DNA of 64,000 bases, from the NCBI GenBank assembly GCA_028277395.1, contig JANQGJ010000098.1, positions 62,001 to 126,000 on the forward strand. The letters are read 5' to 3'. Of this stretch, positions 5,712 to 45,386 are shown one piece after another. The DNA is from Bacteroidales bacterium (lineage in GTDB: Bacteria; Bacteroidota; Bacteroidia; Bacteroidales; F082). Position 1 is the stretch's first letter; each line of letters begins with the position of its first letter. A model generated the notes under the pieces. The model did no database searches. It was not told where the DNA came from and saw nothing but the letters and a program-made list of their open reading frames with translations. A program made the position numbers and the translations under genes.

Positions 5712-6620
5712 GTGAGAGAGACTATTAAAATAGGAAGGCTAAGATGGCTGCACATTAACAATCCCGATGAGGATGATTTTAATGAGTTTGATACAAAGTA
5801 TCATTTTCATCAGCTTGACATTGAGGATTGTCGCCAGACAAACCAGCGACCAAAAATAGATATCTATGACGATTACTATTTTTTGATCCTGCACTTTCCT
5901 GTATTCGACAGAAAAAATCTGTTTGTTAAACCGAGGGAACTAAAAGTTTTCTGGGGTGAGGATTTTCTGATTACTGTTGGTAAAACTCACTGGATTGTTG
6001 ACAGAATGTTTGAAGAAGCAAAAGAACAGGAGGAAAAGGGTATTGATTTTGAAATAGGAACCTCCGATGCTTTACTTTATACTATTCTTGAGAAATTAAT
6101 GACAGAATCAGTTTTTATCCTCAGAAAAATTGGACTGGAGCTTGAGTTAATTAATCGTGAATTGTTCAGCGGTAAACCCCGAAGAATTATCGAACGTTTA
6201 TCAGTAACCCGTAAAAACATTATTGCCATAAATACTATGTTCAAACCTCAGCTTAGGGTATTTAATAAATTTGAATCGGGTAAGGTTGAAGGTTTTGCTG
6301 ATAATATGGAAGATTACTGGGGTAATATTCTCGACTATTACAACAAAATGTGGGATATGACCGAGGATTATGGCGAACTTATCGAAGGTCTCTCTACCAC
6401 TTTCGACTCAATGCAGACTAACAAGACTAACGAAATAATGAAGATACTCACTCTTATTTCGTCAATTATACTTCCTCTTACATTCCTTACAGGATTATAT
6501 GGTATGAATGTGCTGTTACCCATGCAGGATGACAACCTTGCATTTTGGATAATTATAGTAATGATGTTCATAATTGGTGGTGGAATGGCAACTTATTTCA
6601 GAAGGCGTAAATGGCTATAG
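5712..6620 (+). CDS. corA: CorA-family magnesium/divalent cation transporter
   Basis: A 302-residue inner-membrane channel of the CorA family that carries Mg2+ (in some members Co2+, Ni2+ or Zn2+) into the cell. The large N-terminal part is the cytoplasmic funnel with the long helix (about 120-240). Two C-terminal membrane helices follow, with the signature YGMN at the end of the first (LPLTFLTGLYGMNV) and a basic tail RRRKW. The length is normal for the family. The start is GTG at 5712; there is no in-frame ATG nearby, and the promoter sits directly against it, so translation is probably leaderless. It converges on thrA. Confidence 0.9.
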   Translation: MRETIKIGRLRWLHINNPDEDDFNEFDTKYHFHQLDIEDCRQTNQRPKIDIYDDYYFLILHFPVFDRKNLFVKPRELKVFWGEDFLITVGKTHWIVDRMFEEAKEQEEKGIDFEIGTSDALLYTILEKLMTESVFILRKIGLELELINRELFSGKPRRIIERLSVTRKNIIAINTMFKPQLRVFNKFESGKVEGFADNMEDYWGNILDYYNKMWDMTEDYGELIEGLSTTFDSMQTNKTNEIMKILTLISSIILPLTFLTGLYGMNVLLPMQDDNLAFWIIIVMMFIIGGGMATYFRRRKWL

Positions 6621-6636
6621 CCACAGACCATAGCCA
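6612..6636. other. Inverted repeat at the corA/thrA convergent junction
   Basis: TGGCTAT (6612-6618) and ATAGCCA (6630-6636) form a 7-bp stem with an 11-nt loop across the corA stop codon. There is no T-run downstream on the plus strand, so it is at best a weak terminator. The surrounding words (GGCTATGG, CTGTGGCTAT, TAGCTGTAGTTATGG on the minus strand) resemble the 9-nt repeat at 63 kb. Confidence 0.4.
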
Positions 6637-6654
6637 AAAACACCATAACTACAG

Positions 6655-9069
6655 CTATTTTGTTTCAGCAATTCGCAATAAATCTCCAAAAACACCTCTT
6701 GCCGTAACTTTTGCACCTGCTCCTGCACCTTGTATTACAATTGGATTTGCTCCATACGAATCTGTATAAATTTCAAAAATAGAATCTGAACCACGAACCT
6801 GTCCAAGTGAACTTGACTTGGGAACTGACACAAGTTCAACCTTGAGCTGCCCTTTTTCCTGTTGGAGATCTCCATAAAGTTCACCAACATACCGTAATAC
6901 ATGACCCTCTTTTTGCCTGGCTTTTAAGGTTTCAAAATGTGAATCCATATCACCTATTTTGTTTAAAAAACAATCAACAGATCCTCTTCTCAATGGTTCA
7001 GGGATTAGATTTTCAACATCAGCATCTTCGATCTCATTGGTAAGGTCAAGTTCCCGAGCAAGAATTAATAACTTTCTGGCAACATCGTTTCCACAAAGGT
7101 CTTCACGTGGATCCGGTTCAGTGTATCCTCCATCCATAGCTTGTTTCACAATTTTTGAGAATTTCTCTTTTTTTTCGGAAAAAGTGTTGAATATAAAACT
7201 AAGTGAACCTGAAAATACGCCAACAATACGGGTTATGTTTTCACCTGAAGCGTGGAGTAATTTAATAGTATCGATCAATGGTAAACCTGCTCCCACATTT
7301 GTCTCATACAGGTATTGTTTGCCATATTTTTGAAGTGATTTTCTTAGATTACCATAAAATGAATACCCGGATGTGTTTGCCAGTTTATTTGAAGAAATAA
7401 TATCAAACCCATTTTCAATTAGTGGTATGTAGTTATCAATAAAACTATTACTGGCTGTGTTGTCGATAGCAATCAGGTTTTCCAAATGATTGTTGTTTGC
7501 ATAGTCAAGAACCTGATCAATCGGGTTAGCCATAACTCCTGAATTCTCAATATCACTTTTCCAGGTATTGGATATTCCGTTTTTGGATAGTAACAGCTTT
7601 TGTGATCCTGCAACAGCGAAAATATTCAATCGTATTTTCTTTCTTTCTTCAATCTGATCAGTATTTTTAAGAAGCTGCCAGATCAAAGACTCACCAACCC
7701 TGCCTTTTCCAAAAATAGCAATGTTAATCCTTTTCGACACCCCGAAAATCTGAGAGTGGATAACATTAACAGCTTTCTCAACATCAGCTGACTTAACAAC
7801 AATGCTGATATTGATCCCGTTTACATTGTTGTTTATCAGTAATACTTCAATATTGTTTCTGTTTAGTGAATTTATTGCCTGACCAAATCCCTGTATATTA
7901 AGTCCGATAACACTTACTATAGCAACATTTTGTACTGTCTTAATGAAGTTTTTTTCTTTATTGATGAACTCCAGGCCGAATTCATGCTTAAGTGAACTTT
8001 TAATAATATCTATGTTTTCGTTTTCAACAACTAAACTCACACCTTTTTCCGATGAACCACTTGATATCATTTCTATTCCGGTCCTCTCGGTTTTCAAAAC
8101 ACTCAACACACGGGATATTGTCAGTGAATTATCCAACAATCCCTTCCTGTCAAGACTGATTACACATACATTACGCTTTACTGATATTGATTTAACTCCC
8201 TTATTCTTAGTGTAGTTATTGATCAACGTCCCTTTAAATTCATTATTAAAAGTGTTAAGTATCCTGAGCTGTATTCGTTTTTCCTTTAATGGTCCAATTG
8301 TTTTTGCATGTAATATATTAGCTCCAAAACCTGCCATCTCTTCGGCTTCTTCAAAAGTCAGGTAATCAATACTTGCTGCATCATCAACATCATCAGGATT
8401 TGCAGTAAAAATTCCATCAACATTCGTATAACTATTAACCTCCTTTGCATCCAGGTAGTTTGCCAGTAGTGATGCTGTGCAGTTACTGCCATTTCTTCCG
8501 AGAGTAGTAGTATCACCGTTTAAATCTGAAGCGATAAACCCTGTTATCACAGTTATACTATCTGTTGTTAATCCGAAAAAATGATTCTTAACCCTGGATT
8601 CTGATAGCTCATTGACAATTTTTGCATTTCCAAGCCCACTGTCGGTCACCAGTAAATCACGGCTATCAAGATAATTACTTTTATAACCTTTTTTTATCAG
8701 AAGAGAGGTTAACATCTTTGCCGATAGTATTTCTCCCTGTGCCAGTACGAGGTCTTTTGTTTTTAAACTATAATCTCCTATGAGCCCTACACCTTCAAAT
8801 GTTTTTTCAAGAAGACTAAATTCCTCTACAAAATCAATATTATTATTTGGTAAATGCTGATATTCTTTGAATTTAATGAAATCATCATAAAAATTATCCC
8901 TAACCCTGGCCTTCTCAAGCATTATCTCAAGTTCATCTGTTGCATTACCCCTTGCCGAAACAACAATAGCAAGTTGTTCGTTTTCAATTATATGGTTTTC
9001 GATAATTGATATTACATTTTTTAAGCCTTCATTGGAGACAGATTTCCCTCCGAACTTCAATATTTTCAT
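6655..9069 (-). CDS. thrA: Bifunctional aspartokinase / homoserine dehydrogenase
   Basis: An 804-residue fusion catalysing the first and third steps from aspartate to homoserine. The N-terminal aspartokinase (1-290) begins with MKILKFGGKSV and contains TLGRNGSNCTASLL. Two ACT-type regulatory segments follow (about 310-455), then an NAD(P)-dependent homoserine dehydrogenase (about 460-804) with a nucleotide-binding start (IAIFGKGRVGESL) and the substrate segment GGYTEPDPREDL. The length is that of E. coli ThrA. It is the last gene of the metY-metX-thrA operon; its start codon lies 41 nt inside metX, suggesting translational coupling. Its product homoserine is the substrate of MetX, so the whole operon feeds homocysteine synthesis and should follow the Met-leader attenuators. 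Confidence 0.95.
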   Translation of the reverse strand: MKILKFGGKSVSNEGLKNVISIIENHIIENEQLAIVVSARGNATDELEIMLEKARVRDNFYDDFIKFKEYQHLPNNNIDFVEEFSLLEKTFEGVGLIGDYSLKTKDLVLAQGEILSAKMLTSLLIKKGYKSNYLDSRDLLVTDSGLGNAKIVNELSESRVKNHFFGLTTDSITVITGFIASDLNGDTTTLGRNGSNCTASLLANYLDAKEVNSYTNVDGIFTANPDDVDDAASIDYLTFEEAEEMAGFGANILHAKTIGPLKEKRIQLRILNTFNNEFKGTLINNYTKNKGVKSISVKRNVCVISLDRKGLLDNSLTISRVLSVLKTERTGIEMISSGSSEKGVSLVVENENIDIIKSSLKHEFGLEFINKEKNFIKTVQNVAIVSVIGLNIQGFGQAINSLNRNNIEVLLINNNVNGINISIVVKSADVEKAVNVIHSQIFGVSKRINIAIFGKGRVGESLIWQLLKNTDQIEERKKIRLNIFAVAGSQKLLLSKNGISNTWKSDIENSGVMANPIDQVLDYANNNHLENLIAIDNTASNSFIDNYIPLIENGFDIISSNKLANTSGYSFYGNLRKSLQKYGKQYLYETNVGAGLPLIDTIKLLHASGENITRIVGVFSGSLSFIFNTFSEKKEKFSKIVKQAMDGGYTEPDPREDLCGNDVARKLLILARELDLTNEIEDADVENLIPEPLRRGSVDCFLNKIGDMDSHFETLKARQKEGHVLRYVGELYGDLQQEKGQLKVELVSVPKSSSLGQVRGSDSIFEIYTDSYGANPIVIQGAGAGAKVTARGVFGDLLRIAETK

Positions 9070-10054
9070 TACTCTCTTCTTTTATAATTTTAAAAACCGG
9101 AACTAATATTTCAGATAATTGTTCGAACTCAATCAGAAATGCATCATGTCCGTGATCTGATTTTATCTCAAAATAATCATTGGAAATTCCAAGTTCATCA
9201 AGTATTATCTTCGTTCGTTTATTATCTTCGGCAACAAATAATATGTCAGAATCAATGGCGATCTGAATTATTTTTGCCTTTGATTTAGACATGTTTTTCC
9301 GAAACTGATCTTCACTACAGTTTATCCCCAAAGTGGACATTAAATGGGTCATAAACCTGTATGCTTTAATGTTAAATCTACTGTTTAATTTTTCACCATG
9401 ATGTAACAACCATGATTCAACATTATATAATTCCCCGGTATCACTCTTACTCTCTTTGAACTTGTTTGTTAACGAAATTGGAGTACGATAAAATAGCATT
9501 GCCATTATTCTTGCATCCTGCAAAGGCTCACTGGAGTTTTTTAAAATCCGTTTCTGAATGTAATTATGACCTATTATCCAATCGGTTGATCTCCAGTGTG
9601 CAGCAATTGGTATTACATGTTGAATGCCATCAGGCTTCAGCAAAGCCATTTCCCAGGTAATTCCTCCTCCTATTGATCCACCTATTATTGCATATATATC
9701 ATCAATCCCTAAGGCATCAAGCGTGATCAAAAATATCCGTCCAATATCATTTGCCGTAAAGTCATCGTAACTATCTATAAAGTTACCATTAACTCCGTTA
9801 CCGGGAATATTAAATGAAATAACAGAATAGTTGTTTGTATCTATGGTACAGCCACATCCTATCATTTCTCTCCACCACCCTGCTTTCTCACCTGCAACAT
9901 TAGAATTTCCTGTAAGTGCATGTATTATCACAACAACCGGTGCATTATGCAATTCTCTGCCTGTTAGCTCATAAGAGACTTCTAGGTTGTTATACCTGAA
10001 GCCTCTTTGTGTAATATACTCTGCTATGCCGTATGTAAATAAACTGTTCTTCAT
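9029..10054 (-). CDS. metX: Homoserine O-acetyltransferase
   Basis: A 341-residue alpha/beta-hydrolase-fold enzyme that transfers acetyl from acetyl-CoA to homoserine, giving the O-acetylhomoserine used by MetY next door. Motifs: VIIHALTGNSN near the N-terminus, the nucleophile elbow GGSIGGG (MetX type), and the late Asp/His pair in VAEDNKRT and SDHGHDAFLIE. ATG at 10054 is chosen; it overlaps the metY stop as TGATG, and an upstream GTG at 10057 is also possible. The 3' end overlaps the thrA start by 41 nt. MetX and the paralogous serine acetyltransferases share this fold, but the context with metY and thrA settles the call. Confidence 0.93.
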   Translation of the reverse strand: MKNSLFTYGIAEYITQRGFRYNNLEVSYELTGRELHNAPVVVIIHALTGNSNVAGEKAGWWREMIGCGCTIDTNNYSVISFNIPGNGVNGNFIDSYDDFTANDIGRIFLITLDALGIDDIYAIIGGSIGGGITWEMALLKPDGIQHVIPIAAHWRSTDWIIGHNYIQKRILKNSSEPLQDARIMAMLFYRTPISLTNKFKESKSDTGELYNVESWLLHHGEKLNSRFNIKAYRFMTHLMSTLGINCSEDQFRKNMSKSKAKIIQIAIDSDILFVAEDNKRTKIILDELGISNDYFEIKSDHGHDAFLIEFEQLSEILVPVFKIIKEESNENIEVRREICLQ

Positions 10055-11328
10055 CACAAATTGCTTAATGCCTGATTAATGTCATTTTTAAGATCGGTTA
10101 CATCTTCCAGTCCAATGGAAAGCCTGATTAAATCGCGGGTTACACCTGTACTTACCTGTTGCTCCTCTGTTAACTGCTGATGCGTTGTACTCGCAGGATG
10201 TATAATTAATGATTTTGTATCACCAATATTTGCCAACAGGGAGAAGATTTTTGTTGAATCTGTAAACTTTTTTGCAGCATCAAAGCCGCCGGTCAGTCCA
10301 AAAGTAACAATACCGCTTTGTCCTGATGGTAGATACTTTCTCGCAAGGTTTTTGTGTTTATAGCTATCCAGACCCGGATAAACTACCCAGGCAACTTCAT
10401 TTTTTGATTCCAGCCACCTTGCAATTTCAAGAGCATTCTCAGAGTGTCGTTTAATCCTGACATACAATGTCTCCAAACCCTGAATAATATGAAAAGCATT
10501 TGTTGGGCTAAGTGCTCCACCATAATCCCTTAGCCCTTCAATGCGCAGCTTTGCAATAAAGGCTGCTTTTCCAAACAATTCATCATAAACAATTCCCTGG
10601 TAGCCCTCCGAAGGTTCTGTAAATTCCGGAAACCTGCCACTTGTCCAATCAAACGAACCGGCGTCAATCACAACTCCTCCCAATGAATTTCCATGTCCTC
10701 CAATAAATTTTGTTAATGAATGTATTACAATGTCAGCTCCAAATTTTATTGGATTAAGCAATGCTGGTGATGGAACTGTATTATCAACAATTAACGGGAT
10801 ATTGTTTCTTTTAGCAACACAAGAGACTTTTTCAATATCTATAATATCAAGTTTCGGATTTCCCAAAGCTTCAATAAATATTGCCTTTGTATTATCATTT
10901 ATTGCATACTCAAAATTTGATGGATCAGCCGGATCAACAAAGCTGGTTGCAATATTAAATCTTGGCAGAGTTACATTCAGGATATTATAAGTACCTCCAT
11001 ACAAACTATTGGATGCTACTATATGATCTCCTGCTTTCAGTAAAGTCAAAAAGGTAGTTGATATTGTAGCCGTACCCGAAGCAAATACCACTGCCCCGAT
11101 TCCTCCTTCAATTGATGATAATCTGTTTTCCAGAATACTGTTTGTTGGATTATTTAATCGCGTATAAATATATCCATCTTCTTTAAGTGCGAAAACATCC
11201 GCTGCATGATCAGTATTGTTGAAAATATATGATGTTGTCTGGTATATTGGTACTGCCCTGGTTCCTTCAGTTAATGTTGTTATGTGACCAGTGTGCAGCG
11301 CTTTACTATTGTTCTTAAGATTTTGCAT
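10054..11328 (-). CDS. metY: O-acetylhomoserine sulfhydrylase
   Basis: A 424-residue PLP enzyme of the Cys/Met metabolism family that joins sulfide to O-acetylhomoserine to form homocysteine. Seen: the Tyr-rich N-terminal segment (VPIYQTTSYIF), the gating motif YTRLNNPT, the PLP-lysine site HSLTKFIGGHG, and the C-terminal SLIIHPASTTHQQL typical of the sulfhydrylase branch (longer than cystathionine gamma-synthase). It is the first structural gene after the long leader at 11329-11640, with ATG 11328 lying 23 nt past terminator 2. Expression should need read-through of two terminators. Confidence 0.95.
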   Translation of the reverse strand: MQNLKNNSKALHTGHITTLTEGTRAVPIYQTTSYIFNNTDHAADVFALKEDGYIYTRLNNPTNSILENRLSSIEGGIGAVVFASGTATISTTFLTLLKAGDHIVASNSLYGGTYNILNVTLPRFNIATSFVDPADPSNFEYAINDNTKAIFIEALGNPKLDIIDIEKVSCVAKRNNIPLIVDNTVPSPALLNPIKFGADIVIHSLTKFIGGHGNSLGGVVIDAGSFDWTSGRFPEFTEPSEGYQGIVYDELFGKAAFIAKLRIEGLRDYGGALSPTNAFHIIQGLETLYVRIKRHSENALEIARWLESKNEVAWVVYPGLDSYKHKNLARKYLPSGQSGIVTFGLTGGFDAAKKFTDSTKIFSLLANIGDTKSLIIHPASTTHQQLTEEQQVSTGVTRDLIRLSIGLEDVTDLKNDINQALSNL

Positions 11329-11351
11329 TTCTTTATGTTTTTATGTTTATT

Positions 11352-11393
11352 AAAAAAAAAGTCCCTTTGGATCAGGTATTACCAAAGGGACTT
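11352..11393 (-). terminator. Attenuator terminator 2 of the metY leader
   Basis: On the minus strand AAGTCCCTTTGG (11393-11382) and CCAAAGGGACTT (11370-11359) form a perfect 12-bp stem with an 11-nt loop, followed by an unbroken U-run (to 11352). It stands between the second leader ORF and metY. The loop and the inner 5' arm contain GGTAATACC (11383-11375), the exact complement of GGTATTACC (11430-11422) at the end of leader ORF 2; G-U and A-U pairs extend this to 12 bp. That pairing would break the inner half of the terminator stem, as an antiterminator should. Confidence 0.92.
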
Positions 11394-11413
11394 AAAATAA
11401 TTTTTATACATAG

Positions 11414-11488
11414 TCAGTTCCGGTAATACCATAGCATTAGCATCATCATCCACATATACATTTTTAATGTTCCGGATATTATTCTCAT
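11414..11488 (-). CDS. Methionine-rich leader peptide 2 (24 aa)
   Basis: A 24-residue ORF, ATG 11488 to TGA 11414, with seven Met in total (positions 1, 10, 12, 14, 15, 16 and 18), so six of residues 10-18 are or adjoin Met; the tail is LWYYRN. The Met run is placed just upstream of the antiterminator arm GGTATTACC (11430-11422), which itself overlaps codons 20-23. A ribosome stalled at Met codons leaves the arm free; one that reaches the stop codon covers it. This is the classical geometry of ribosome-mediated attenuation. The peptide itself probably has no function. No Shine-Dalgarno sequence is obvious, as usual in this phylum. Confidence 0.85.
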   Translation of the reverse strand: MRIISGTLKMYMWMMMLMLWYYRN

Positions 11489-11502
11489 AATTTTATTTCA
11501 AC

Positions 11503-11534
11503 AAAAAAGGCCTCTGCTAATTTGCAAAGGCCTT
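11503..11534 (-). terminator. Attenuator terminator 1 of the metY leader
   Basis: On the minus strand AAGGCCTTTGC (11534-11524) pairs with GCAGAGGCCTT (11517-11507) as an 11-bp stem with one G-U pair and a 6-nt loop, followed by six U (to 11503). It lies 27 nt after the stop of leader ORF 1. The segment GCAAAAGGC (11582-11574) inside ORF 1 can pair with GCCTTTGC of the 5' arm, leaving one bulged A, and so compete with the terminator. Confidence 0.88.
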
Positions 11535-11561
11535 CTCAATATTTTTATATTTTATTATAAA

Positions 11562-11633
11562 CTATACAAATATGCCTTTTGCGCAGACTTCTGCACACAT
11601 CATATTACGCATATTTATAGTTTCTTTTCTCAT
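11562..11633 (-). CDS. Met/Cys-rich leader peptide 1 (23 aa)
   Basis: A 23-residue ORF, ATG 11633 to TAG 11562, with Met at 1, 8, 11 and 12 and Cys at 13 and 17 (core NMRNMMCAEVCAKG). The antiterminator arm GCAAAAGGC overlaps codons 18-20, so a ribosome stalled at Met11/Met12 or Cys13 leaves it free. The start codon lies only 9 nt after the -7 box of the promoter, so the message should begin almost at this ORF. Position, content and the following terminator 1 together support an attenuator leader rather than a chance ORF. Translation from internal ATG codons 8 or 11 is an alternative. Confidence 0.8.
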   Translation of the reverse strand: MRKETINMRNMMCAEVCAKGIFV

Positions 11634-11642
11634 TTGAAACGA

Positions 11643-11672
11643 CAAAAGTATTTCTTTTTTTAACAGATCAAA
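11643..11672 (-). promoter_or_regulatory. Promoter of the metYX-thrA leader transcript
   Basis: On the minus strand TTTG (11672-11669) is followed after 18 nt by TACTTTTG (11650-11643), a near-ideal Bacteroidota promoter. Transcription should start around 11636-11639, immediately in front of leader ORF 1. Confidence 0.7.
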
Positions 11673-11780
11673 AAAAATCAGGAAAATTTTAAAATCAAAG
11701 AACTGGTTATACTATTTTATGAAATTTTCTACATAAAATCCTGTAGATTAATTCAAAACTATTCCTTCGATAAAATGTTA

Positions 11781-11788
11781 TAAGTTTG
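11781..11788 (+). promoter_or_regulatory. -7 box before the Cache-PAS kinase
   Basis: TAAGTTTG followed by C matches the TAnnTTTG -7 element, 19 nt before the ATG at 11808. No exact TTTG is present at the expected -33 distance. Confidence 0.45.
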
Positions 11789-11807
11789 CAAACGACAATT
11801 ATTGCTC

Positions 11808-13901
11808 ATGAAGAATAAATATCTAACACTCACTATAAAGTTTCAGCTATTTTATCCGGTTCTTATTGCTTTAGTTGCAGCCATAGTGATATTTGCGTTA
11901 TTCCTTGTTAGTACGAGCAGGGAATCAATATACCAGTTGGCTGAAAAAGATATGCTGCTGGAAGTCTCCACCATTAAAAAAATGTTTGAGAGAGAAAGGG
12001 AACTAAAACTTGAAACCGTAGAAACTAATTTAAAAGTAGCACACCGCTTATTTCATGATCAGAAGTTGAGATTTTCCGGAAAAGATAACTCAATCGAGGT
12101 CACAAATCAGCTAACAGGTAAATCCCATAATACAAATATAAAACAACTGTTATGGGGCAATAAACCTATTCTCAATTCAAATGAGTTTCCTGATGAAACG
12201 CATAAACTATTTGGTGGAACAACTACCATATTTCAAAAAATAGACAGTGGGTATCTTAGAATATCCACAAACGTTATGACTAAAAAAGGAATTGTTGCTG
12301 TTGGTACATTCATACCAAACTCATCTGTTGTAGCGCAAACCATATCTGCAGGAATGCAATATTACGGCAGGGCTTTTGTTGTAAACGACTGGTATATAAC
12401 CGCATACGAGCCAATATATTTAAATAACGAAATTATTGGGGCTCTTTATGTCGGGGGAAAAGAAAAGGATATTGAAAAATTAAGAGAAACACTCAACACA
12501 TTAAAAATAGGTGAAACAGGTTTTCCTTTTGTAATTGATAAAGATGGGGAAATTGTTTACAAACCTGATGATCCGCGAAATATAGTAATTGATGATAGCA
12601 TAGTTTCATACATTACAAACAACGATACAGACATACTACGATTTATCAGTCCGGTAAACAATAAAGAATATCTTATTGCCCATGCTTATTATTCAGAATT
12701 TGGATTTCATATACTAACTGCTATACCATTAAAAGAGTTGACCCATGTTCCATTACGCTCAATAGTTGTAAATGCTGTTGTAATGGGCAGTATTCTTCTT
12801 ATTCTTCTGATAATTTTAATGCTTTCAACCACTATTCCAAGAGTACATAGATTGCTGAACGCTATAAAGCTTAGCAATACCAAGTTAAAGACCACAAAAG
12901 AAGCACTTAAAAGGAGTGAAGAAAATTTTGAGACAATCTTTCAAAATAGTAGCGATGAAATATTTGTAAGCGACATCCAGGGAAATATTATTGAGGTAAA
13001 TAACCAGGCCAGCAAATTACTGGGATATTCCAAAGAACAGATCCTTCAAATGAATATCCTGGATCTAAAACCTCTAAAGCAGGCAGAACAGTTTCTTAAA
13101 TATCGTAAAACAATAATTGAAGAAGGAGCATTTCTGTTCGATTCCGAATTTATAACAAACAGTGGTGAAGTAATACCGGTGGAAACAAACAGCCGTGTTC
13201 TTGAGTTTAATGGTGAAACGGTAATTCTTAGTATCTCCAGAAATCTTGCTAAACGAAAAGAAACAGAACGTAAAGTATTAAGTGCTGTAATTCAAACTGA
13301 AGAAAAAGAGAGAGAACGGTTTTCAAAAGATATGCACGATGGTATTGGCCCATTATTATCAACAATAAAATTATATGTAAATGAACTTGGTTCTGCCGAG
13401 ATTGGCCAGAAAGAAAAACAGGAGTTCGTTGAACAGGTTAACAAGATGCTGGACGATGCAGTAGCCAGCATAAGAGAAATATCAAATAACCTGATGCCAA
13501 GGGTAATCCATGAATATGGTCTGGTAAAAGCGCTGGAAGCATTTTGCGAAAAGGTAAACCAAACCGGTAAAATTTATGTTGATTTTAATACTAATGGAAT
13601 TGAGTATTCACTGGATAAAAACATACAGTTGATACTGTTCAGAGTTATCAGTGAGTTATTAACCAATACCATAAAGCACGCCAGGGCAAAAAATGCATAC
13701 GTTCAGCTTCAGAAATCCGATGATAATATTTCATTGATCTTTACTGATGATGGTATTGGATTTAACAGTAAGCAGGTGATGGAAAATAAAAATACTGGGA
13801 TAGGTTTAAAAAGTATTGTAAGCAGGATCAAATCAATAAACGGAACATGTGAAATAATCAGTAGCGAAGGAAAAGGTTTCAAGATAATTATTGAAATTTA
13901 A
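11808..13901 (+). CDS. Cache-PAS sensor histidine kinase (HisKA_3 type)
   Basis: A membrane sensor of about 697 residues. Order: membrane helix 1 (about 10-34), extracytoplasmic Cache-type ligand domain (to about 310), membrane helix 2 (about 320-345), short coiled linker, a PAS domain (about 375-480, FQNSSDEIFVSDIQGNIIEV), a HisKA_3 dimerisation segment with the acceptor His510 in KDMHDGIGP, and an HATPase domain with DDGIGFN and TGIGL motifs. ATG 11808 is preferred over the TTG two codons earlier. The NarL-type regulator begins 69 nt downstream and is the expected partner. The cluster sits directly upstream of the hydrogenase operon on the same strand, so control of that operon is possible but unproven. 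Cache domains bind small organic acids or amino acids; the ligand is unknown. Confidence 0.9.
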   Translation: MKNKYLTLTIKFQLFYPVLIALVAAIVIFALFLVSTSRESIYQLAEKDMLLEVSTIKKMFERERELKLETVETNLKVAHRLFHDQKLRFSGKDNSIEVTNQLTGKSHNTNIKQLLWGNKPILNSNEFPDETHKLFGGTTTIFQKIDSGYLRISTNVMTKKGIVAVGTFIPNSSVVAQTISAGMQYYGRAFVVNDWYITAYEPIYLNNEIIGALYVGGKEKDIEKLRETLNTLKIGETGFPFVIDKDGEIVYKPDDPRNIVIDDSIVSYITNNDTDILRFISPVNNKEYLIAHAYYSEFGFHILTAIPLKELTHVPLRSIVVNAVVMGSILLILLIILMLSTTIPRVHRLLNAIKLSNTKLKTTKEALKRSEENFETIFQNSSDEIFVSDIQGNIIEVNNQASKLLGYSKEQILQMNILDLKPLKQAEQFLKYRKTIIEEGAFLFDSEFITNSGEVIPVETNSRVLEFNGETVILSISRNLAKRKETERKVLSAVIQTEEKERERFSKDMHDGIGPLLSTIKLYVNELGSAEIGQKEKQEFVEQVNKMLDDAVASIREISNNLMPRVIHEYGLVKALEAFCEKVNQTGKIYVDFNTNGIEYSLDKNIQLILFRVISELLTNTIKHARAKNAYVQLQKSDDNISLIFTDDGIGFNSKQVMENKNTGIGLKSIVSRIKSINGTCEIISSEGKGFKIIIEI

Positions 13902-41538: not shown

Positions 41539-44500
41539 TCATATATTTACGGGTAAAAGTCGCTTAACTTCACTCTCATCCATATTTTTTCTAATAGCAT
41601 AGTCATTAATCTGGTCTGGTTGCAATTTTCCCACATTAAAGTATTGAGAATCAGGATGTGAAAAATAATATCCACAAACAGATGCCGCAGGGTTCATAGC
41701 ATAATTATCAGTTAGCTCCACTCCTGTTTTATTACAGGCATCAAGCAGTTTAAACAGTTTCATCTTTTCAGAATGTTCCGGACATGCAGGATAACCGGGG
41801 GCAGGTCTTATCCCCTGATATTTTTCGCTGAGTATTTCATCAGTTCCCAGTTTCTCATCTTTGACATATCCCCAGTATTCAGTTCTTACTTTATGGTGAA
41901 CAAGCTCGGTCGCTGCTTCAGCAAGTCTGTCAGCAAGTACTTTAAGCATGATGATTGAGTAATCATCATTTGCTTCTTCGAACTTACTAATGTATTTTTC
42001 AATTCCTAATCCCGTTGTTACAACGAAGGCTCCAATATAATCTGATTTTTCATTGATTTTTGGTGAAATGAAATCGCTAAGACACAAATTTGGTATTCCT
42101 TCTTTTTTCTTTTCCTGATTTCTCAAGAAATTAAACATTATTTTCTCATTGTTGTTGTCATGTACAATAACATTATCACCATCAGAATAAGCAGGGAAGA
42201 TTCCAAAAACAGCTTTTGCTTCCAGCCAATTTTCCTTAATAATACTGTCAAGCATAATATTAGCTTCGTCAAACAATTTTTGAGCTTCTTTACCTTTAAC
42301 CGGATCAGTTAAAATACCTGGATACTTTCCGTTTAGCTTCCAGGCATGAAAAAAGAATGTCCAGTCGATGTATTTTCTTACTTCACTTAAATCAATATCA
42401 GTTATTTCTCTGGTACCAATAACTTCAGGCTTACTGACTGAATAATTAATCCAGTCACAATAATATTTATTAATCCGTGCATCTACAAGTGATAGATATG
42501 TTTTAGCGTTGGTGTTGTTTCTGTGTTTTTCACGAAGTTTTTCATACTCCGATTCTTTTTGTTCAATATAAGTCTGCCTTTCATCAGGTGATAACAAGTT
42601 TCCGGCAACGCCTATTACTTTTGAAGCATCCCTGACGTGAATTACAGGATTGGAATAATGGGGTGATATTTTAACAGCTGTGTGAATTGCTGATGTTGTT
42701 GCACCACCTATCAGCAATGGAACATTCATTTGCTTTCTTGTCAGTTCACCTGCAACATGTACCATTTCTTCAAGTGAGGGGGTAATTAATCCACTTAATC
42801 CGAGTAAATCGGCATTTTCATTGTTAACTGCTTCTAGTATAGCTTCGGCAGATACCATTACCCCCAAATCTATTACTTCATAATTATTACATGCAAGAAC
42901 TACTCCAACAATATTTTTACCAATATCATGAACATCTCCCTTAACTGTAGCCAGTACAACTTTACCACTGGATGACTGCCTTCCATTATTTTCGAGTTCA
43001 ATATAGGGAAGTAAATATGCTACAGCCTGTTTCATCACACGTGCACTTTTTACTACCTGTGGTAGAAACATTTTTCCTGAACCAAATAAATCACCAACAA
43101 TGTTCATCCCGTTCATTAAGGTAACTTCAATTACATCAAGTGCACGCTTTGTATTCAACCTTGCCTCTTCAACATCTTCTTCAATGTATTCAGAAATACC
43201 TTTTATTAATGAGTGTTCAAGCCTATTTTCAACGGGTAAATTACGCCATTCTTCTGAAGCTGTCTTAACTTTTCGATCACTGTCATCAATTTTTTCCGCA
43301 AACAACAATAACCGTTCTGTTGCATCTTTTCTTCTGTTTAATACAACATCTGTCACAAGAGTTCTCAGATATTTTTCGATTTCATCATAAATCTGAAGCA
43401 TTCCCGGGTTTACAATACCCATATCCATTCCTGCTGCTATAGCATGATACAGGAATACTGAATGAATTGCTTCACGTACTATGTTGTTACCTCTAAACGC
43501 AAAAGACAGATTACTTACACCTCCGCTAACCTTAGCATACGGAAGGTTTTCTTTAATCCAGCTAACAGCATTTATATAATCAACGGCATAATTACTGTGT
43601 TCTGCAATACCGGTTCCTATTGCTAGTATATTTGGATCAAATATTATATCTTCAATCGGGAATCCGTTGTTTTTAAGCAAATTATACGCACGGTCACAAA
43701 TCTCAATCTTTCTTTTAAAATCAGCAGCCTGACCTTTCTCATCAAATGCCATTACAACTACCGCAGCACCATATTTTTTTATTAACTCAGCCTGTTCAAG
43801 AAATTCTTTTTCACCATTTTTAAGACTAATTGAGTTTACAATTCCTTTACCCTGAATACACTTTAATCCCTCTTCAATAACTTCCCATTTGGAAGAATCA
43901 ATCATAACAGGTAATCTCGAAACGTCAGGATCAGAGGCTAGATAATTCAAAAATGTAACCATTTCGGCTTTGGCATCCAGCATACCGTCATCCATGTTTA
44001 CATCCAACACTTGAGCTCCACCGGCCACCTGATGACGTGCTACAGATAATGCTTCTTCATAATTTTTCTCCCTGATAAGTCTGGCAAATTTCCTGGAACC
44101 ACTAACATTTGTTCTTTCACCAATGTTTACAAAGTTGTTTAGCTTGCTTACAGTTACCGGTTCAAGTCCGCTTAAGGTAGTTACATGTTGTTTTACAGGA
44201 ATGTTACGAGTATTGTACTTGGCAACAATATCTGCAATCTTTTTAATATGATCCGGAGAGGTGCCACAGCATCCTCCAACAATATTTACCATTGAATTTT
44301 CCACAAAATCCTGAATATGTACTCCCATCTGATCAGGTGTTTCATCATATTCACCAAACTGATTAGGTAACCCTGCGTTGGGATAAACACTAACATTATA
44401 GGGAGCAATTTTAGAAAGCTGTGCAAGGTATGGCCTGATCTGTTCTGAACCCAAAGAGCAGTTTAATCCAATACTCAGCATATCTATATGTGATACTGAA

Positions 44501-45189
44501 TTAAAAAATGCTTCCAGAGTTTGTCCTGATAACGTTCTTCCGCTTGCATCAGTAATAGTTCCGGATATCATTACCGGAATACGACATCTCTTTTCTTTCA
44601 TCAACTTTTCAACACCAAACAAAGCTGCTTTTGCATTTAGGGTATCAAAAATTGTTTCAACTAAAAGAATATCAACACCTCCGTTTATTAATGCGGATGC
44701 CTGCTCGTAATAATTATCTTTAAGTTCATCAAATGTTATATTACGAAAGCCCGGATCTGTAACTTCGGGAGACATTGATGCAGTTTTATTTGTTGGTCCC
44801 ATTGCACCGGCTACAAATCTTGGTTTCTCCGGATCAAGAAGGCTAAACTTATCAGCTGCTTTTCTGGCAATTTTTGCTGCCTGAAAATTTATTTCATAAA
44901 CTTCATTTTCGAGTTTATAATCGCTTTGTGAAATCCTTGTACCATTAAAGGTGTTGGTTTCAATTATATCTGCTCCGGCTTCCAGATACTTTTCATGAAT
45001 TTCCTGAATAATATGCGGCTGAGTAATGTTTAAAAGATCATTATTCCCGGTTAACAATACATTTATGTTTTCAAATTTTTTCCCACGATAATCCTTTTCT
45101 TCCAGTTGATACTTCTGGATCATAGTTCCCATGGCACCATCCAGAACAAGTATTCTTTTTTTTAGCTCGTTTTGTATTACAGACTTCAT
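41539..45189 (-). CDS. metH: Cobalamin-dependent methionine synthase
   Basis: A 1216-residue enzyme with all four modules: homocysteine/Zn domain (1-330, [10 protein letters not shown] and VGGCCGTSP), methyl-folate pterin-binding domain (about 355-630, [11 protein letters not shown]), B12 cap and binding domain (about 650-880, [13 protein letters not shown] with the lower-ligand His), and SAM-dependent reactivation domain (about 900-1216, [12 protein letters not shown]). It methylates the homocysteine produced by MetY. The length equals the E. coli enzyme, so nothing is missing. It starts at ATG 45189, 79 nt after the riboswitch. Confidence 0.96.
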
Positions 45190-45267: not shown

Positions 45268-45386
45268 TAAAATTTATCATTTCCCCTAAAGTCCGGGGTT
45301 AGGTATTGGCACCTTTTCTGATTATCAGAAGGTTGCCAGGGCTTCTCAGAGCCTAATCTCTCCACCCTTCTTTATAAATCAAGAAG
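45268..45386 (-). promoter_or_regulatory. SAM-I (S-box) riboswitch upstream of metH
   Basis: The minus strand shows the S-box core in order: AAGAAGGGTGGAGAGATTAGG, CTCTGAGAAGCCCTGGCAACC, a P3 hairpin (CTTCTGATAATCAGAA), AAGGTGCCAATACCT, and the P4 hairpin CCCCGGACTTTAGGGG. P1 can form between TGATTTAT on the 5' side and GATAAATTT on the 3' side. It senses S-adenosylmethionine. The 78 nt to the start codon contain no strong U-tailed hairpin, so control may act on translation or through an expression platform I cannot define. Confidence 0.93.

Follow-up and report, generated by a model that had tools for sequence, protein, structure and literature searches.

The metY-metX-thrA operon on the minus strand of the window (the whole stretch of DNA analysed, 64,000 nucleotides long) is preceded by a leader at 11650-11352, which very probably consists of two serial transcription attenuators of the classical ribosome-mediated type, each of them reading methionine. 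As read from the sequence, the leader holds two modules in tandem, each composed of a short Met-rich ORF, an antiterminator arm at the 3' end of that ORF, and a strong U-tailed terminator. The leader is real and conserved, and it is very likely functional as a Met-reading attenuator pair; its anatomy, conservation, reading frame and pairing potential are observed directly. The first gene of the operon, metY (10054-11328, minus strand), encodes an O-acetylhomoserine sulfhydrylase and passes the TIGR01326 model with 601 bits against a cut-off of 495; the MetY family bears the name O-acetylhomoserine aminocarboxypropyltransferase/cysteine synthase. It is followed on the same strand by metX (9029-10057), homoserine O-acetyltransferase-like, whose best family, TIGR01392, is matched below the curated cut-off, and by thrA (6655-9069), a bifunctional aspartate kinase/homoserine dehydrogenase whose best family is NF006959 (702 bits, cut-off 726).

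A promoter-like element, TACTTTTG (11643-11650, minus strand), has its first base 17 nt ahead of ORF1 and matches TAnnTTTG, which we take to be the Bacteroidetes-type -7 promoter motif. ORF1 (11562-11633, minus strand; 23 codons, MRKETINMRNMMCAEVCAKGIFV) has Met at residues 8, 11 and 12 within the stretch NMRNMMC, and near its 3' end lies antiterminator arm 1, GCAAAAGGC (11574-11582), which pairs imperfectly with the 5' arm of terminator 1 (hairpin 11506-11535, -19.4 kcal/mol, U-tract down to about 11503). ORF2 (11414-11488, minus strand; 24 codons, MRIISGTLKMYMWMMMLMLWYYRN) has Met at residues 10, 12, 14, 15, 16 and 18, and near its 3' end antiterminator arm 2, GGTATTACCGGA (11419-11430), can form 12 bp with the loop and 5' arm of terminator 2 (hairpin 11359-11393, -18.1 kcal/mol, U-tract down to about 11352). 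A predicted intrinsic terminator with a U-tract stands between each leader ORF and metY, at 26 nt from the stop codon in module 1 and 20 nt in module 2. These readings agree with a preliminary description of this DNA, which had reported two serial modules of short ORF, antiterminator and U-tailed terminator ahead of metY, six Met in residues 10-18 of ORF2, and exact complementarity between GGTATTACC (11430-11422) and GGTAATACC (11383-11375); the predicted duplex comprises 12 continuous bp and 4 more. For ORF1, the NMRNMMC stretch described there is present, and the pairing of GCAAAAGGC with terminator 1 is weaker than had been claimed, with a bulge or mismatch and a longest unbroken helix of 6 bp. 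When the leader was simulated 2000 times by a first-order Markov process, no run gave a short ORF with six Met in nine residues, and 2 runs gave one with four.

No Rfam family, SAM-I (RF00162) and T-box included, matches the leader at the gathering threshold, so a known riboswitch was excluded as its identity. The single Rfam match in the window at that threshold is a SAM-I riboswitch at 45271-45380 (minus strand) before metH (gene 41539-45189), and it is the one SAM-I found in the genome. It seems, therefore, that the last step of Met synthesis is read through SAM in this organism and the sulfhydrylation operon through the leader peptide. A horizontal-transfer scar was also considered and rejected, since the GC content of 6000-12000 is within the range of the remaining window.

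To see how such leaders are distributed, we examined the 80 best MetY-encoding loci in named genomes (out of at least 573, so not a census), together with orthologues in relatives of the genome that holds the window. The leader rule asks for a short ORF, with two or more internal Met and a Met plus Cys total of five or more, whose end lies no further than 110 nt from a U-tailed hairpin of less than -10 kcal/mol (the second module of L109 was entered by hand); for SAM-I, the 420 nt ahead of metY were considered. These 80 best of at least 573 loci comprise 19 with a leader, 56 with SAM-I, 5 with neither (L010, L015, L018, L058 and L086, of which L010 and L086 are cut off by contig ends) and none with both. 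With the window, L088-L090, L108-L110 and L115-L118 (leader) and L111-L114 and L119 (SAM-I) added, the 96 loci, some of them closely related to each other, comprise 30 with a leader, 61 with SAM-I, 5 with neither and again none with both. Distant MetY-like loci (L091-L107, 45-52% identical) were excluded from the 96, and none of these 17 carries a leader under the same rule. Tandem modules occur at 14 of the 30 leader loci (44 modules in all); the tandem arrangement is thus common, not universal. At 12 of the 30 (the window, L031, L069, L074, L080, L087, L089, L108, L109, L110, L116 and L117), the motif TAnnTTTG is present without mismatch no more than 60 nt from the first scored ORF.

Within the window's order, metY orthologues are rare (5 of 393 genomes at E <= 1e-150, the window's own counted), and none was detected in seven genomes of the same genus at E <= 1e-120. 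All six order-level relatives found with a MetY at least 59% identical (L088, L089, L090, L108, L109 and L110) carry a leader, five of them in tandem. On a MetY tree of 113 rows, built by a quick method with a midpoint root and with the SAM-I loci L111-L114 and L119 labelled 'none', the leader label requires 4 changes, compared to 26.9 for shuffled labels. Leader-bearing rows are the window, its leader-carrying order-level relatives, L117 and a mostly Flavobacterium clade of 21 rows; the rest of the Flavobacteriaceae mostly have SAM-I, and Lutibacter L031 is a leader row within the SAM-I part. The tree is consistent with an old leader later replaced by the riboswitch, given a midpoint root that may not be the true root. 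The window is probably of Bacteroidota origin, since its genome belongs to one class with genomes that have a MetY almost identical to the one in named Flavobacterium. On the opposite strand upstream of metY, SAM-II riboswitches are seen in L012, L031, L034, L069 and others, next to a divergent metK (named by eye) in L031; SAM-II, SAM-I and leader peptides all lie within a few kilobases of each other at such loci. In L069, L074, L080 and L087, a second short ORF with a Cys/Arg core (PRRCCRMC) is located about 50-120 nt before metY and was not counted as a module.

The short ORFs bear the marks of translated sequences. In 31 non-redundant modules, ATG occurs 157 times in frame (start excluded) and 9 times out of frame; Met makes up 21.5% of residues (start excluded), a share inflated by the selection of modules on Met plus Cys content, and Cys 8.6%. 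The distance from stop codon to terminator in these modules is 5-45 nt, with a median of 24. In the aligned homologues of ORF1, gaps upstream of the stop codon are mostly multiples of three. The peptide sequence itself drifts, its conservation being limited to Met/Cys content and a loose pattern in the first module; Met codons, frame, spacing, terminators and antiterminators are conserved. The leaders of the window's order contain mostly Met, with no Cys in ORF2 of the window or in either ORF of L089, and in Flavobacterium many combine Met with Cys (L061 has 6 Cys beside 5 internal Met).

The specificity of the rule was assessed by a scan of 717 kb on both strands, covering the window, the 80 metY loci and 30 ATGATGATG loci of the window's own genome. 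This gave 642 short-ORF/terminator pairs, of which 40 rows satisfy the Met/Cys rule: 26 are leaders of metY, the window's two included, 2 more are the window modules encountered again in L124, 7 represent one recurrent Flavobacterium ORF before a SAM-I/metX region, and the last 5 (L008, two in L020, L033 and L047) have the appearance of coding-region artefacts. The recurrent ORF, QMNKSLQMNKMFTVALICAYVC, stands with a strong terminator before a SAM-I riboswitch and metX (L061:6023-6121), with equivalents in L070, L071, L076, L081, L083 and L084; possibly, an attenuator and a riboswitch share one leader there.

The ORF tails are well matched to the terminators that follow them. Between the ORF tail and the 5' arm plus loop of the terminator, the summed duplex energy over the 31 non-redundant modules is -424 kcal/mol, compared to -283 +/- 13.7 for shuffled tails, with none of 1000 shuffles as low; the ORF-tail energy is below that of the pre-ORF segment in 28 of 31 modules. 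In 28 of 31 as well, the longest helix does not extend past the stop codon, and this position, together with the stop-to-terminator spacing, would place a terminating ribosome so as to mask the antiterminator. Five closely related Flavobacterium modules (L061, L071, L081, L083 and L115) show no pairing above their own shuffles, with z slightly positive.

Alignments were made for 36 of the 44 modules; those omitted (L021, L074, the first module of L055, L071, L076, L081, L082 and L083) are mostly near-copies. In 17 first modules, 88.1% of the cells of the 7-bp antiterminator are paired, a level reached by 1 of 500 shuffles, and sliding the partners by 1-3 columns lowers the value to 28-53%. One pair of this helix is A-U instead of G-C in the window, L088, L089, L108 and L117. 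In the terminator, the base that pairs with that same U is A in three of these (L088, L089 and L117) and G in the other two (the window and L108), so that the antiterminator and both terminator strands can all still pair; in module 1, the antiterminator and terminator arms change together. For the module 1 terminator, 99.3% of cells are paired, and 6 pairs have changes in both partners. In 19 second modules, the terminator is 94.3% paired (0 of 500 shuffles), with compensatory changes in relatives, and the antiterminator is 78.8% paired (1 of 500 shuffles) in an alignment that is doubtful at the outer pairs. Neither antiterminator has further pair types above shuffles (500 of 500 and 263 of 500 shuffles), and the 2 pairs of the module 1 antiterminator that are changed on both sides are reached by 186 of 500. 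Of the checks proposed in the preliminary description, the one for conservation in relatives, whose failure was to refute its reading, found both the Met codons and the pairing conserved. The geometry of attenuation by Met-tRNA that it had recognized is supported by the conservation of antiterminators, terminators, spacing, frame and Met codons.

In most first modules, the stretch between the Met run and the antiterminator can be folded into a hairpin running into the antiterminator. In ORF1, this is a possible 1:2 hairpin (TGTGCAG-AAGT-CTGCGCA, 11580-11597, minus strand), which overlaps the start of the antiterminator. With strands picked by eye and L090 and L109 excluded, 77 of 84 cells are paired in 14 distinct rows, and among 5000 randomizations of each kind for these hand-picked strands, no column shuffle and one strand swap come as high; RNAalifold found no pairs and no consensus structure in the alignment of the ORF1 region. 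The folding z of first-module ORFs against shuffles is -4.5 in the window and -4.7 in L089, and -0.4, -0.4 and -0.1 in L070, L090 and L116; second-module ORFs are mostly no more stable than shuffles (window ORF2, z -0.4). These values are no more than suggestive of an extra in-ORF hairpin in module 1 that would be mostly absent from module 2.

From the arrangement of these elements, we infer a working cycle that runs from the transcription start through translation, stalling and read-through to a starvation response. Transcription would start just before ORF1. When Met-tRNA is charged, the ribosome would reach the stop codon of each ORF and cover the antiterminator arm in its last codons; the terminator 20-26 nt downstream could then form, and the polymerase would halt at about 11503 or 11352. 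When charged tRNA-Met is scarce, the ribosome would stall in the Met run, about 20-50 nt ahead of the stop codon, and the free arm would pair with the terminator, at its loop and 5' arm, while the 3' arm is still to be made. With the terminator blocked, the polymerase would continue into metY-metX-thrA. If the ORF of module 1 is left untranslated, the in-ORF hairpin may hide the antiterminator, and modules in series should multiply repression. The Flavobacterium leaders probably read tRNA-Cys in addition to tRNA-Met.

The E. coli thrL leader was taken through the same analysis steps as a positive control. Its stop-to-terminator distance is 21 nt, compared to the module median of 24, and the predicted value for sequestration of the 5' arm ahead of 3' arm synthesis is 1.00 for thrL (0.67 shuffled) and on average 0.97 for the modules (0.66 shuffled), above the shuffled value in 29 of 30. 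In equilibrium folding with a stalled ribosome, the terminator still wins, with a mean probability of 0.99, and likewise for thrL (1.00). The switch must therefore be kinetic and co-transcriptional, and equilibrium folding was set aside as an uninformative test, since it predicts termination under stalling for the control too.

Leaders of this kind are also found at other genes. A first-module model, R1, was run on 395 genomes of the class, with eight candidates scored per genome and strict filters, and it matches 48 of them at E <= 0.001. Of nine matches of at least 59 bits, four are training sequences at metY, and the five others lie before sulfur-amino-acid operons: before cysE (G666), before a TonB-dependent-receptor-like gene adjoining metY (L154), before OsmC-like-metX-thrA (L155), before metX-thrA (L157), and before a gene of the sulfite/nitrite-reductase family (L158). 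In L155 and L157, the first ORF is Met/Cys-poor and outside the leader rule. Among the weaker matches are leaders rich in Cys or in Met/Cys before genes of sulfite-reductase type (L161, L176 and L203) and before cysE (L166), a Met/Cys leader ending ACMMMMCCMQNFARGRLLYCL before cysH, the phosphoadenylyl-sulfate reductase gene (L194, about 540-730), and Lys-rich leaders before asd (L177, L180 and L192). One cysE, one cysH, one asd and one reductase were named by NCBIfam/Pfam, and the other target genes by eye from similarity. Below about 50 bits, many matches are ordinary gene ends; of 30 R1 loci read, 13 are leader-like by eye, 1 is an Asp artefact, and 16 have no Met/Cys-rich leader, L163 and L168 among the 16 being incomplete and read at the wrong offset. 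In the window's own genome, R1 revealed no second strong leader copy: module 1 scores 101 bits, and the ten further matches at E <= 1, which include module 2 (28.9 bits), reach 25-31 bits.

Several further loci were noted beside these matches. Cys-rich or Met/Cys leader ORFs with terminators stand in tandem before a sulfite/nitrite-reductase family gene in L197 and L198 (G435 and G632), and similar leaders precede such a gene in L191, in tandem, and in L203 (G730 and G750); among these four targets, the name comes from Pfam for L197 only. A Met/Cys leader (MMLFVCNMCCMMWKNPQSISIA) is present before cysE in L190:1473-1601, and a Cys leader (MKTINFNTCSSLVCCCKNSGRALIVFK) before a cysE-like gene in L199:810-953. 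At asd, a lysine attenuator is possible, since leader ORFs rich in Lys, such as MKMICKNKKHNMKRFQQGKGQ, stand with terminators ahead of the gene in L192, L200 and L201. In some Flavobacterium, a TonB-dependent-receptor-like gene (by eye) is located between a first-type module (L193) and the second module with metY (L061), hinting that it shares the leader control there. On balance, we favour the view that the Bacteroidota possess a network of leader peptides, with Met at metY and metX-thrA, Met/Cys or Cys at cysE, cysH and sulfite-reductase-type genes, and Lys at asd, often in tandem for the same signal and exchanged with SAM-I.

A possible, though less likely, reading is that sulfur amino acids are sensed generally, with Cys weighing as much as Met or more and the Met-only ORF2 of the window marking one end of a spectrum. 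The mixed Flavobacterium leaders (as in L061), the Cys-rich relatives before sulfite-reductase-type and cysE-like genes, and the words 'cysteine synthase' in the MetY family name speak for it; the lack of Cys in ORF2 of the window and both ORFs of L089, and the mostly Met content of window-order leaders, speak against it. It is very improbable that a Met-rich nascent peptide arrests the ribosome on a metabolite such as SAM, instead of the ribosome responding to uncharged tRNA. Metabolite-induced arrest peptides exist, and the peptides here are short and close to a regulated terminator; however, arrest peptides usually conserve a specific motif, and these peptides conserve nothing past Met/Cys content and the loose first-module pattern.

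An RNA-only element, either a new riboswitch or a protein-binding RNA in which the ORFs are incidental, is very improbable: first-module ORFs often fold more stably than shuffles and the leader has no Rfam match, but the ratio of in-frame to out-of-frame ATG and the multiples of three among first-module gaps point to translation. Chance, in the form of ordinary terminators beside AT-rich short ORFs with ATG repeats, is extremely improbable. In its favour, ATGATGATG is frequent in the window's genome (258 sites, compared to 34 for the reversed pattern), and an Asp-rich gene tail with a terminator (L159, by eye) mimics a Met leader; chance ATG repeats are nevertheless ruled out by conservation at one gene across families, tandem repetition, pairing and spacing.

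The best-known regulators of methionine genes are riboswitches, T-boxes and MetJ; at metY-metX-thrA, the ribosome itself appears to read Met-tRNA. Met is needed to start every leader ORF, so severe starvation should also cut initiation, and the response to Met starvation could be non-monotonic, which is testable. With leader and SAM-I replacing each other at the same gene, metY provides a natural experiment on what leads a lineage to gauge charged tRNA and not SAM, and serial attenuators for the same signal offer a testable way to deepen repression. The findings suggest that amino-acid control in Bacteroidota, a major phylum of gut, soil and aquatic habitats, includes a layer that has been little explored. 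To our knowledge, neither a methionine leader-peptide attenuator nor tandem attenuators for one amino-acid signal have been described before. Searches of open papers returned no Met leader-peptide attenuator, and within that scope the statement in the preliminary description that it knew of none holds.

The classical amino-acid attenuators of Proteobacteria include trp, his and ilv, and the leader described here resembles E. coli thrL in its short ORF rich in codons for the pathway product, its antiterminator at the ORF end, and its terminator about 20 nt past the stop codon. It differs from the Proteobacteria attenuators in its Met (and Cys) codons, its occurrence in Bacteroidota, whose ribosomes mostly do not use Shine-Dalgarno sites, and its frequent possession of two full modules for the same signal. 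SAM-I (RF00162), which binds SAM directly, is like the leader in position, standing before metY at 61 of the 96 loci (the best 80 of at least 573 and those added). The Salmonella mgtCBR leader likewise has two short ORFs, each tied to alternative structures, and its tandem attenuators are called a singular example by the authors in the portion of the article available to us; as described there, its two ORFs answer different signals, ATP and proline, whereas here the same codon is enriched in both (PMC3641672). Control by a leader peptide for a sulfur amino acid is shared with the cysS uORFC-8-2 motif of Rhodobacterales, which also has an intrinsic terminator (PMC8632094), and with the Cys leader peptides of Mycobacterium (PMC1262725). 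In contrast to the present leaders, both are Cys leaders of other phyla, with no tandem mentioned in the available passages; according to those on Mycobacterium, its Cys leaders lack conserved terminator hairpins, and Actinobacteria methionine operons have no conserved RNA structure upstream (PMC1262725). In 2010, leader-peptide systems were stated, in the available part of the report, to be known from Proteobacteria and Actinobacteria only, before that report's own Firmicutes case (PMC2965389). Within Bacteroidota, available excerpts mention short ORFs reminiscent of leader peptides in B. thetaiotaomicron (PMC7366714) and 'strong clues' that operons for amino-acid biosynthesis in F. psychrophilum have leader-peptide attenuation ahead of them (PMC9723704). 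The latter belongs to the same family as the Flavobacterium leaders; the main text leaves the attenuation unspecified and does not contain the word 'methionine', and the cases may include a relative of the Met leader (PMC9723704). Compared with these systems, the principle of attenuation is known, and methionine as the signal, tandem modules for the same signal, the exchange with SAM-I and the wider sulfur network appear to be new.
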